Shown here in pieces: positions 18,508 through 21,619 of a stretch of DNA of 38,100 nt. The notes under the pieces were generated by a model, which saw only the letters and a list, made by a program, of their open reading frames with translations, was not told the DNA's origin and did not search any database. This stretch comes from Acidobacteriota bacterium. Its GTDB lineage: Bacteria; Acidobacteriota; Terriglobia; Acidiferrales; UBA7541. The stretch is from NCBI GenBank assembly GCA_003224145.1, contig QHYN01000244.1, positions 1 to 38,100 of the forward strand, written 5' to 3'. Every line of letters begins with the position of its first letter. Position 1 is the first letter of the stretch. The position numbers and the translations under genes were made by a program.

Positions 18508-18556
18508 TTTCCCCGGACGAGTGGCCCAGACGTAAAGCCCGACGACGAATTTGGGT

Positions 18557-18590
18557 GCCCCATCACGCCGGGTTTGCGTGTGGGGCTTTT
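18557..18590 (+). terminator. Rho-independent-terminator-like hairpin downstream of the protease
   Basis: GCCCCATCACGC-CGGGTTT-GCGTGTGGGGC followed by TTTT (one bulge). Confidence 0.55.
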
Positions 18591-18799
18591 GACATTGACT
18601 CATGCGATGGCCACGCACCAGCTCACGATCAAAACCAATCCGGCAAAATCGGCTCGCCAAGGCTTCCCCCTCGCGCCCTCCGCCCGCCTTCCCACAGTTT
18701 CCCCCGCCCCCAGTGAGCTCTACCCCTGTGTTTTCTTTCGTTTACGCGCCCGTTCGAACCGATGTGCTCTCTTGTTAAATACTAGTACTATAAATGGAA

Positions 18800-18828
18800 T
18801 TGACAAGACTTATATTTCGCGCTATCAT
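18800..18828 (+). promoter_or_regulatory. Near-consensus sigma70 promoter
   Basis: TTGACA (18800-18805) - 17 nt - TATCAT (18823-18828) in an AT-rich patch; no credible ORF begins for ~560 nt downstream. Confidence 0.7.
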
Positions 18829-18909
18829 GGATCGTGAATTCTCGACTCCACTCCCACCGCCCGCCGCTTTTCGATCCTTCTCCTGACATCTTTGCCTTTC
18901 TGCTTCCTT

Positions 18910-19310
18910 GCGTCCTCTTAGATCGTCACCGTGACGAAAATCCCTTCACCGCAAGTCCTTTAGATTCTGCTCTTACAAACGGTGACGCCCGTAACCCCTT
19001 TAGAATCCGCTCTTACAAAAAATGCCGGGTGTCACCCGCGATTTTCTGCTCTTCCTTCTTGCGCCCGTCGCTACTCTGCAGTCACAAGCCCTTTGCCATC
19101 CCTTTCTTTTTAACCAGTTACGAACTGCAAATTGTCCAAGTCCTTTGTTTTGATATTCATACAAATTGCCCGGGGGGTGTATCCCCCTCTCTTCGTTCTC
19201 CAGAGTTCCGTATACTCTTCCAAGTTCCGTATACCCTAAGTCCTTTGTTTGCCACTCTTACGAAAACTGCCGGGGTAGTCGTACTTCTAACCAAGAATCC
19301 CCGCAGAAAA
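18910..19310 (+). repeat. Degenerate repeat/hairpin array in the relA/spoT leader; candidate structured non-coding RNA
   Basis: AAGTCCTTT at 18953, 19138 and 19238 (variants AACCCCTTT 18993, AAGCCCTTT 19086); TTTAGATTCTGCTCTTACAAA (18959) vs TTTAGAATCCGCTCTTACAAA (18999); distinct hairpins after the units. Confidence 0.6.
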
Positions 19311-19396
19311 ACTCTACCTACTTCCCATTCTGGACCTCGCTCCTCCCCGGTCTTCCACCCCTCCCCGGAGGTGCCCTTTTGGGCGTAAACTAACCC

Positions 19397-21619
19397 ATGC
19401 CCTCGCCAAGCAATCTCCCGCTAAGCTTCAACCGCAACCGCGCGGCTCGCCTGCTGGACGCCCGCCTCGAAGAGCTCCTCGAAAAACTCCGCAAGAACCG
19501 CCCTTCCGAGGATCCGTGGATGCTCCGCCGCGCCTATGAAATTGCCTCGGAGCGCCATCACGATCAGCTCCGCAGTTCCGGCGACCCTTACGTGTCCCAT
19601 CTCCTCGAAGTGGCGCACATTCTCGCCGACATGCGCCTCGATGTCACCACGCTCACCGCCGCCATTCTGCATGACGCCATCGAGGACACCGAGTATCCCG
19701 CCTCCCGCATTGAAGAACGTTTCGGCGCGGACGTCGCCCACCTCGTCGAAAGCGTCACCAAAATTGCCCGCCTGAACATCAGCGCACCCGAAACCCGCCA
19801 GGCCGAAAACGTCCGCAAGATGCTGCTGGCCATGGTGACCGACGTTCGCGTCGTGCTCGTCAAGCTCGCCGACCGCCTGCACAACATGCGCACTCTCGAA
19901 TACCTCGATCCCGCTCGGCAGCAGCGTATCGCCCGCGAAACTCTCGACATCTACGCGCCCATTGCTCATCGCCTCGGAATGAGCGTGGTTCGCGGCGAAC
20001 TCGAGGACCTTTCCTTCCGCTATCTCGAACCCGAAGCCTTCTTCGCCCTGCAAAAACAAATCAGCGACAAAGCGGCGTTTCACAAGGAATTCCTCGATGA
20101 GGTTCAGGCCACCATCCGGTCCAAGCTCGTCGAAGCCGGTATTCCCGCCGAACTCGAAGCCCGCGTGAAAGGTCTCTATTCACTCCACCGCAAGATGCTC
20201 CGTCAGGAATCCGGCCTCGAACAGATTTACGACATGCTGGCCGTGCGCGTCGTCTCCGATTCGGAGCGCAACTGCTACGCCGCCCTCGGCGTGGTCCATC
20301 ACATCTGGCGCCCCGTCCCCGGCCGCTTCAAGGACTACATCGCCATTCCACGACCCAATCTTTATCAGTCCCTGCATACCACCGTGATGCATAGCGGGCA
20401 GCCCTTCGAGGTGCAAATCCGCACGCAGGATATGCACCGCATCGCGGAAGAAGGCGTGGCGGCACACTGGAAATATAAAGCGGGCAAGCCAGGAGCGCAG
20501 GATGACGATCAGCGTATTTCCTGGATGCGCCAGCTCATCGAGTGGTCGCAGGAACTTCAGGAGCCTGGAGAATTTCTTTCCACGCTGAAAGTGGATCTCG
20601 CGCCTCTGGACGTATACGCGTTTACCCCCAAAGGCCGTGTGCTGGAACTCCCGCGGGGCGCCACGCCGGTGGACTTTGCCTACATGGTGCACACCGAAGT
20701 GGGCCACCAGTGTGTCGGCGCCAAAGTGAATGGCCAGATGGTTTCGCTGCGCCACGAAATCCAGAGCGGCGATGTGGTCGAAATCCTCACGCAGAAAGGC
20801 CATCACCCCAGCCGCGACTGGCTTAGCTTCGTGAAGTCTTCGTCGGCGAAGAGCAAAATCCGCCATTGGATCAACGAGCAGGAACGCGCGGAAGCCAGGG
20901 AGATGGGCAAGCGTCTGCTCGAAAACGAAGCGCGCCACTTCGGTCGCAGCCTGAAGAAAATCCCGGAAGCGGACATGCTCAAGCTGGCCACCGATTCCGG
21001 CCTCTCCAAAATCGAGGATCTTTACGCCGCTGTCGGTTTTGGAAAATATTCCGCGCGCCAGATTCTCACGCGTGTGCTCGGCGAACCGGCCAAAACCGAG
21101 GGGCCTTCAGCGCCTGATTCCGCGCCGACCCTGGTCAAAACCGTGAAGCGCATGCTGGGCTTTGGCGAAGCTCCGCTCATCGTCAAGGGCCACGACGATT
21201 TGCTCGTCTACCGCGCCAAGTGTTGTAACCCCATTCCCGGCGACGAAATTGTGGGCTACATCACGCGCGGCCGTGGGGTCGCTGTCCATACACACGCTTG
21301 TCCCAACGTGCAGAATCTGCTGTACCAGACGGAGCGCCGCATCGCCGTCGAATGGGGCGGCGGGAGCACCTCCACTTTTCCGGTACGGCTTTCCATTCGC
21401 GCCGCGGATCGCGCCGGATTGCTCGCGGAAATCACTGCGGTGATTAGCGGCGCGGGCTCCAACATTCACAGTCTCGAAAGCCGCCCCGATCGCGCCAATG
21501 CGCGGATCGACGCCAACTTGGAAATTACCGATAGACGCCAGCTCGAAACCATTCTCCTCAATATCAAGAAAATTTCCGGTGTCTTCGGCGTCGAACGCAT
21601 CTATCCGGCCAGCCACTGA
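19397..21619 (+). CDS. Bifunctional (p)ppGpp synthetase/hydrolase (RelA/SpoT homologue)
   Basis: HD domain (HLLEVAHILADMRLD...AAILHDAIEDT), synthetase FKDYIAIPRPNLYQSLHTTV, TGS, and C-terminal ACT domain. Confidence 0.97.
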   Translation: MPSPSNLPLSFNRNRAARLLDARLEELLEKLRKNRPSEDPWMLRRAYEIASERHHDQLRSSGDPYVSHLLEVAHILADMRLDVTTLTAAILHDAIEDTEYPASRIEERFGADVAHLVESVTKIARLNISAPETRQAENVRKMLLAMVTDVRVVLVKLADRLHNMRTLEYLDPARQQRIARETLDIYAPIAHRLGMSVVRGELEDLSFRYLEPEAFFALQKQISDKAAFHKEFLDEVQATIRSKLVEAGIPAELEARVKGLYSLHRKMLRQESGLEQIYDMLAVRVVSDSERNCYAALGVVHHIWRPVPGRFKDYIAIPRPNLYQSLHTTVMHSGQPFEVQIRTQDMHRIAEEGVAAHWKYKAGKPGAQDDDQRISWMRQLIEWSQELQEPGEFLSTLKVDLAPLDVYAFTPKGRVLELPRGATPVDFAYMVHTEVGHQCVGAKVNGQMVSLRHEIQSGDVVEILTQKGHHPSRDWLSFVKSSSAKSKIRHWINEQERAEAREMGKRLLENEARHFGRSLKKIPEADMLKLATDSGLSKIEDLYAAVGFGKYSARQILTRVLGEPAKTEGPSAPDSAPTLVKTVKRMLGFGEAPLIVKGHDDLLVYRAKCCNPIPGDEIVGYITRGRGVAVHTHACPNVQNLLYQTERRIAVEWGGGSTSTFPVRLSIRAADRAGLLAEITAVISGAGSNIHSLESRPDRANARIDANLEITDRRQLETILLNIKKISGVFGVERIYPASH

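Follow-up and report, generated by a model that had tools for sequence, protein, structure and literature searches.

A dispersed mosaic repeat upstream of relA in Acidobacteria that may provide an additional promoter and a translated leader

In the genome of an uncultured member of the Acidobacteriota, the gene relA/spoT is preceded by roughly 560 nt that follow a near-consensus promoter and contain repeated units and short inverted repeats. What is this stretch of DNA, and does it serve relA? We analyzed it within a window of 38,100 nt (contig QHYN01000244.1 of assembly GCA_003224145.1, positions 1 to 38,100 of the forward strand). An initial annotation of the window had offered several readings: a structured RNA or independent small RNA, a long regulatory 5' untranslated region (UTR) of relA, or a dispersed repeat that landed there. 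The genome comprises 4.79 Mb in 359 contigs and has its relatives among uncultured group 2 Acidobacteria. For comparisons we used one genome per species, mostly draft, and called genes with a simple home-made hexamer caller, whose called starts are imprecise.

A dispersed mosaic repeat upstream of relA

We found that the stretch upstream of relA is a dispersed repeat, as one of the initial readings had it. A BLAST search of the same genome with positions 18780-19396 gave 65 matches, at ~74-95% identity. In aligned copies, the homology begins at ~18683-18699 and ends at ~19338 (both ends are approximate). That is, the element described initially is present, but it is longer than had been claimed. 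The copies join a head to modules in varying numbers and are therefore mosaics; we refer to head and modules together as the cassette. The head spans ~170 nt from ~18699 and contains ATACTAGTACTAT, TTGACA, 17 nt, TATCAT, and then GTGAATTCTCGACTCC. Both the promoter and the AAGTCCTTT repeats at 18953, 19138, and 19238, with their variants, are where the initial annotation had placed them. The imperfect palindrome ATACTAGTACTAT may be an operator. Features of the copy in the window are listed in Table 1.

Table 1. Features in and around the cassette upstream of relA
Feature	Coordinates	Strand	Basis or comment
Intrinsic-terminator-like hairpin, GCCCCATCACGC..GCGTGTGGGGC then TTTT	18555..18590	+	Sequence; behind the trypsin-like gene
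Cassette head with promoter region, a dispersed repeat in its own right	18699..18870	+	16 aligned sequences from the same genome
Imperfect palindrome ATACTAGTACTAT, operator-like	18779..18791	no strand	Present in most heads of this type
-35 box TTGACA	18800..18805	+	Sequence, aligned heads
-10 box TATCAT, 17-nt spacer	18823..18828	+	Sequence, aligned heads
Leaderless-type leader ORF, GTG start, TAA stop	18834..19388	+	184 codons; open frame across the family
Module A: CGTCACCGTGACG palindrome and two units CCTTTAGA..CTCTTACAAA, 40 nt apart	18924..19040	+	Aligned copies
Module B: ..AGTTCCGTATACCCTAAGTCCTTTGTTTGCCACTCTTACGAAAACTGCCGGGGT..CTTCCCATTCTGGA	19092..19338	+	Aligned copies; ends in CTTCCCATTCTGGA
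relA proximal -10-like box TAAACT	19386..19391	+	5 nt before the ATG; common to related species
relA/spoT	19397..21619	+	HD_4, RelA_SpoT, TGS, and ACT domains

The cassette is restricted to a narrow lineage. A pattern describing the units had 40 matches in the genome of the window and 0 when the pattern was reversed, so the repeats far exceed what chance would give. A degenerate version gave 94 matches in that genome and 0-94 per genome across 36 congeneric species, with at least one match in 31 of the 36, and one genome of a sister genus had 46; as a control, the reversed degenerate pattern matched 0 times in any of these genomes. Homologous arrays in relatives, which the initial annotation had suggested as a check, were thus found. 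Among 151 genomes of the class, representing 72 genera, matches occurred in two genera only, with none in the other 70. In the literature that we searched, which covers the field in part, there was no description of this cassette family.

Genes called with the hexamer caller overlapped none of 74 unit clusters (0/74). The cassette is dispersed, short, and intergenic and has no transposase gene of its own, as is typical of MITEs and Correia-like elements, and we identified no linked transposase. We rejected the possibility that the units are REP elements driven by a RAYT, since the number of Y1_Tnp matches does not track the number of units: one species (G006) has 52 units and 0 Y1_Tnp, and another (G050) has 5 units and 15 Y1_Tnp.

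Other loci and species showed several further arrangements. In G012, stand-alone palindromic C elements of ~130 nt predominate. At loci L120-L139 of this species the C elements, ~130-155 nt long, contain GTAAGT..ACTTAC dyads. They have a G-rich end, GGGGGGTGGGG, often terminate in GTTATGGTTAACCAG, and mostly face the 3' end of a gene on the opposite strand. Upstream of the stand-alone C elements at L127, L131, and L132 is another type of promoter, TTGACT..TATAAT, followed after ~40 nt or less by an intrinsic-terminator-like hairpin; very short RNAs could be made there. Tandem units at L172, L176, and L181 of G045 have a period of 39 nt (13 codons) and not 40. In G042, CCTTTGTTTCCCCTACTTACGCAAA is present in nine identical copies, perhaps a separate recent expansion. 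Module A carries the same ~30-nt GC-rich hairpin insert, GCGCCTTCGCGCG..CTGCGCGAAG, in the same position at two loci from two species, L061 and L017. In the window, the terminator-like sequence at 18512-18600 behind the trypsin-like gene has similar copies at other loci and is a further dispersed repeat. The sole Rfam match in the window is an Acido-Lenti-1 RNA (RF01687; 17495-17539, minus strand, 39.4 bits), and a search of the window for tRNA and tmRNA genes found none.

An open reading frame at a fixed distance from the promoter

The region before relA had been described initially as having no credible gene. We found that it contains a frame of 184 codons that begins with a GTG 5 nt after the -10 box, ends with a TAA 8 nt before the ATG of relA, and is kept open across the family. 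Near-consensus promoters, belonging to several head families, are found upstream of most arrays. Promoters were chosen on the basis of their score and the position of a start codon only, and the length of the ORF was not used.

We compared the three reading frames in 51 arrays from six species. In these arrays a start codon lies exactly 5 nt past the -10 box. The codon varies (GTG, ATG, or TTG), and it is always a start. TTG was added post hoc, after inspection of arrays that lack GTG and ATG (G045 has TTG at that place). With TTG included, the frame set by this codon (frame 0) was free of stops through the last unit in 41 of the 51 arrays, and the other two frames were open in 4 and 4. Considering GTG and ATG starts alone (39 arrays), no stop interrupted frame 0 before the last unit ended in 34, and the others were open in 4 and 3, with 18 stops in frame 0 versus 109 and 138. 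Start codons at other distances from the -10 box were not accompanied by such a bias. Loci fetched after the hypothesis had been formed behaved similarly: frame 0 was open in 4 of 5, versus 0 and 1 for the other frames, and in G045, also fetched afterwards, it was open in 8 of 9, versus 0 and 0. Five of the 10 failures (L126, L127, L154, L157, and L168) either belong to the C-element type of locus or have terminator-like sequence behind the promoter.

The arrays share ancestry, including within one species, so these counts are not independent and the p-values given here serve as guides. Because shared ancestry could mimic the signal, we recounted stops using only sequence without similarity to other arrays. 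In this array-unique sequence, ~2,100 codons per frame, there were 14 stops in frame 0 versus 45 and 40 in the other frames (p=2e-5). In addition, the spacing to module A fell in one frame in 18 of 22 arrays, though the spacer varies widely.

Leaderless genes that have a TANNNT box ~12 bp before the start codon were predicted in all three acidobacterial genomes that were examined previously, with a mean of 13% (PMC3160421). Our own baseline for leaderless genes, obtained with the home-made caller, was a small peak only (5 of 172, at 6 nt). The cassette has two of the features expected of leaderless genes of the TANNNT type, the spacing from the -10 box and a frame open beyond chance. On these grounds the leader looks translated from the first nucleotide of its transcript, which runs counter to the main point of the initial reading as a long regulatory 5' UTR.

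Downstream genes and a proposed role for the leader

The gene next downstream of a unit cluster was co-directional for 24 of 31 clusters in the genome of the window and for 10 of 14 in G023, but for only 9 of 25 in G012. Arrays are found upstream of relA in some species only, with different heads (G000, G012/G048, G023, and G003), and array remnants are found there in G016, G001, and G041. In those related species that were inspected, array or not, a TAnACT or similar box precedes the ATG of relA by 5-7 nt; in the window, this box and the stop codon of the leader overlap. The presence of this conserved promoter-like box is a further argument against viewing the leader as the 5' UTR of relA. 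At larC and at a gene encoding a DUF480 protein, the array is likewise upstream of a conserved proximal promoter. That these three genes have conserved promoters of their own is a counterpoint to the view of the cassette as a supply of promoters.

We also followed the open frame beyond the repeats. Between the last unit and a co-directional gene, frame 0 was open in 18 of 26 arrays, compared to 11 and 7 for the other frames (p=0.007). Several leader ORFs run a few nucleotides into the next gene before they end. At one locus, puuD-like as read from the protein, the leader ORFs of G023 (A and B modules) and G022 (a C module) are unrelated to each other and share one stop, 14 nt inside the gene. 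Leader ORFs do not appear to be N-terminal extensions of the next gene: 5 of 21 intact ORFs (~24%) were in frame with it, no more than expected by chance.

Based on these results, we favor, with some reservation, the notion that the cassette is a lineage-specific dispersed mosaic that provides the next gene with an additional promoter and with a leader that is translated. At its head, a sigma70-type promoter and an operator-like palindrome would lie before the gene's own promoter. The terminator-like hairpin behind the trypsin-like gene, similar copies of which occur at other loci, suggests that the cassette probably needs a promoter of its own. Transcription would start at the start codon itself (18834), leaving no 5' UTR, and the transcript would read on into relA. 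Repeat modules that are interchangeable would make up the leader ORF, together with unique pyrimidine-rich sequence. The leader is 34% C and 17% G (C/G 2.0), versus 30% and 29% in the window as a whole. Judging from this composition, such a C-rich, G-poor, and poorly structured leader could be prone to Rho-dependent termination when it is not translated. Its translation would keep transcription running and bring ribosomes to the next start codon, and in this way might prevent polarity or be coupled to expression of the gene. Modules could be swapped as long as the frame with the TAA stop is avoided, and selection would act on the openness of the frame and not on the peptide.

Dispersal, modularity, intergenic position, the exact 5-nt spacing, and the selective openness of one frame are all seen directly in the sequence. 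For approximately 11 of 37 arrays the neighbor ahead is a gene on the opposite strand, with its 3' end toward the array, and these arrays are mostly open as well. A model in which the cassette purely serves the downstream gene does not predict such open arrays, and coupling leaves them unexplained. It is possible, if rather doubtful, that the cassettes constitute a lineage-wide system serving tens of genes, relA and many housekeeping genes among them. Each gene would have a second promoter and a leaderless leader selected for its translatability and not its product, assembled by the reshuffling of modules that stay open in two of the three frames, and the leader would sense the state of translation or initiation through Rho or reinitiation.

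Alternative explanations and known systems

The open arrays that lack a co-directional gene would be accounted for if the cassette were a selfish MITE-like or REP-like mosaic repeat that happens to spread as open units, much as Rickettsia palindromic elements do within genes, the ORF being a by-product that reduces harm to transcription nearby and has no function for the host. The patchy copy number among species, the stand-alone palindromic C elements of G012, often oriented toward the 3' end of a gene on the other strand, and the finding that one orthologous site bears different heads and modules would all fit. We consider this alternative unlikely. Several species pairs have arrays at orthologous loci. 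Presence at relA is patchy and many loci are shared, in species that are too distant for the identification of exact empty sites. A B unit at larC is near-identical over >50 nt between species in which fourfold sites are just 54% identical. A purely selfish repeat also does not explain why the start codon keeps a fixed distance of 5 nt from the -10 box or why stops are depleted in non-repeat sequence too. In addition, no linked transposase was identified, and the numbers of Y1_Tnp and of units do not go together.

Could the peptide be the product? Fast-evolving but real small proteins, with an N-terminus of the form M-x4-[HQ]-[PS]-R-[RHQ] followed by repeated modules, would require that frame 0 be open. 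The N-terminal pattern is weak; codons 6 and 8 within it vary mostly at the third position, and module A is translated as RHRDENPVTASPLDSALTN.DARNPFRIRSYENCRVS in most arrays. In contrast, substitutions in module A are spread over the codon positions (0.154, 0.149, and 0.184) with almost no excess at the third. In the alignment of the relA leaders of G012 and G048, we read about as many differences at one codon position as at another, and within the first 250 nt there are two indels, one of 3 nt and one of 6 nt. Two frames are used for module B, in 8 and 7 arrays, and never the frame containing TAA. A Pfam search with three leader ORFs gave no match. Constraint at the level of amino acids, as in a conserved protein-coding gene, was thus seen only as a weak signal at N-terminal codons, and we rejected an ordinary protein for want of a codon-position signal and a Pfam match. 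A family of small proteins is improbable as well. Because differences are even over codon positions, module B is used in two frames, and there is no Pfam match, we infer that openness of the frame is retained and the peptide is largely free, and that the nucleotide sequence of the units can nonetheless be strongly kept.

This conservation of unit sequence, which extends to all positions and to orthologous loci, and the regular spacing of the units (40 nt, or 39 nt in G045), with dyads of the form GTAAG..CTTAC, are also what might be expected of a DNA array of protein-binding sites that acts on the neighboring promoter in an enhancer-like way. Such an array would not predict an open frame or a start codon locked to the -10 box, and we judge it to be an improbable explanation by itself, although binding sites and translation could coexist.

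A structured regulatory RNA or small RNA is very improbable and largely refuted, despite the presence of short inverted repeats. RNAalifold, run on 21 A, 38 B, and 43 other units, detected no covariation, which the initial annotation had named as a test, and the energy of the consensus fold of module B was close to zero. Rfam had no match at the site of the cassette. The initial annotation had described stems that vary in sequence and all pair. We found that the CGTCACCGTGACG palindrome has the same sequence in aligned copies, and it does not covary because the sequence itself is kept. All six pairs of CGGGTG/CACCCG are kept in 5 of 20 aligned copies and all five pairs of CAGTT/AACTG in 0 of 7; only GGGGG/CCCCC mostly keeps its pairing (5 of 7). 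The missing covariation, the lack of an Rfam match, and the loss of most of the named stems speak against a structured RNA family.

If the cassette does supply an additional promoter together with a translated leader, then tens of translated leaders per genome go unannotated in these abundant soil bacteria, and unrelated genes have come to share a standard promoter-plus-leader module derived from a repeat family. The cassettes would then be a natural test of selection on the openness of a reading frame independent of the peptide, and would offer a concrete way to study how Acidobacteria translate leaderless messages. The analysis also corrects a plausible call of a structured RNA that was based on palindromes alone.

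The cassette resembles several known systems in part. Correia elements of Neisseria (NEMIS/CREE) are short, dispersed, non-coding sequences that have sigma70-type promoters and are found upstream of genes (PMC10969869). The cassette is also dispersed, carries a promoter of this type, and lies upstream of genes. It differs in being made of mosaic modules behind a ~170-nt head, in having a leaderless ORF through the array, and in belonging to another phylum. Rickettsia palindromic elements (RPEs) are palindromic repeats that are in an open frame inside coding sequence (PMC10969869), and the repeats of the cassette are likewise kept in an open frame. RPEs enter existing conserved genes, whereas the frame of the cassette belongs to a leader ORF that comes with a promoter, and no unit cluster overlapped a called gene. 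CGTC-tagged REP families have stems of 8-9 bp, and Acidobacteria are not among their reported hosts (PMC3733652). Like REPs and CGTC-tagged palindromes, the cassette is intergenic and dispersed, and its module A begins with CGTC; the likeness is limited to these first letters, and the stem of module A is different. With leaderless TANNNT genes (PMC3160421) the cassette shares a -10 box ~11 nt before the start codon. Those are single conserved genes, in contrast to a dispersed family with little conservation of the peptide. The likeness to translated leader ORFs that control polarity or coupling would lie in the proposed mode of action; the known ones are individual leaders, and here a leader built from repeats is common to tens of loci per genome. 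Of all these, the nearest kinds are promoter-bearing MITEs, for which Correia elements are an example, together with in-frame palindromes, for which RPEs are one.
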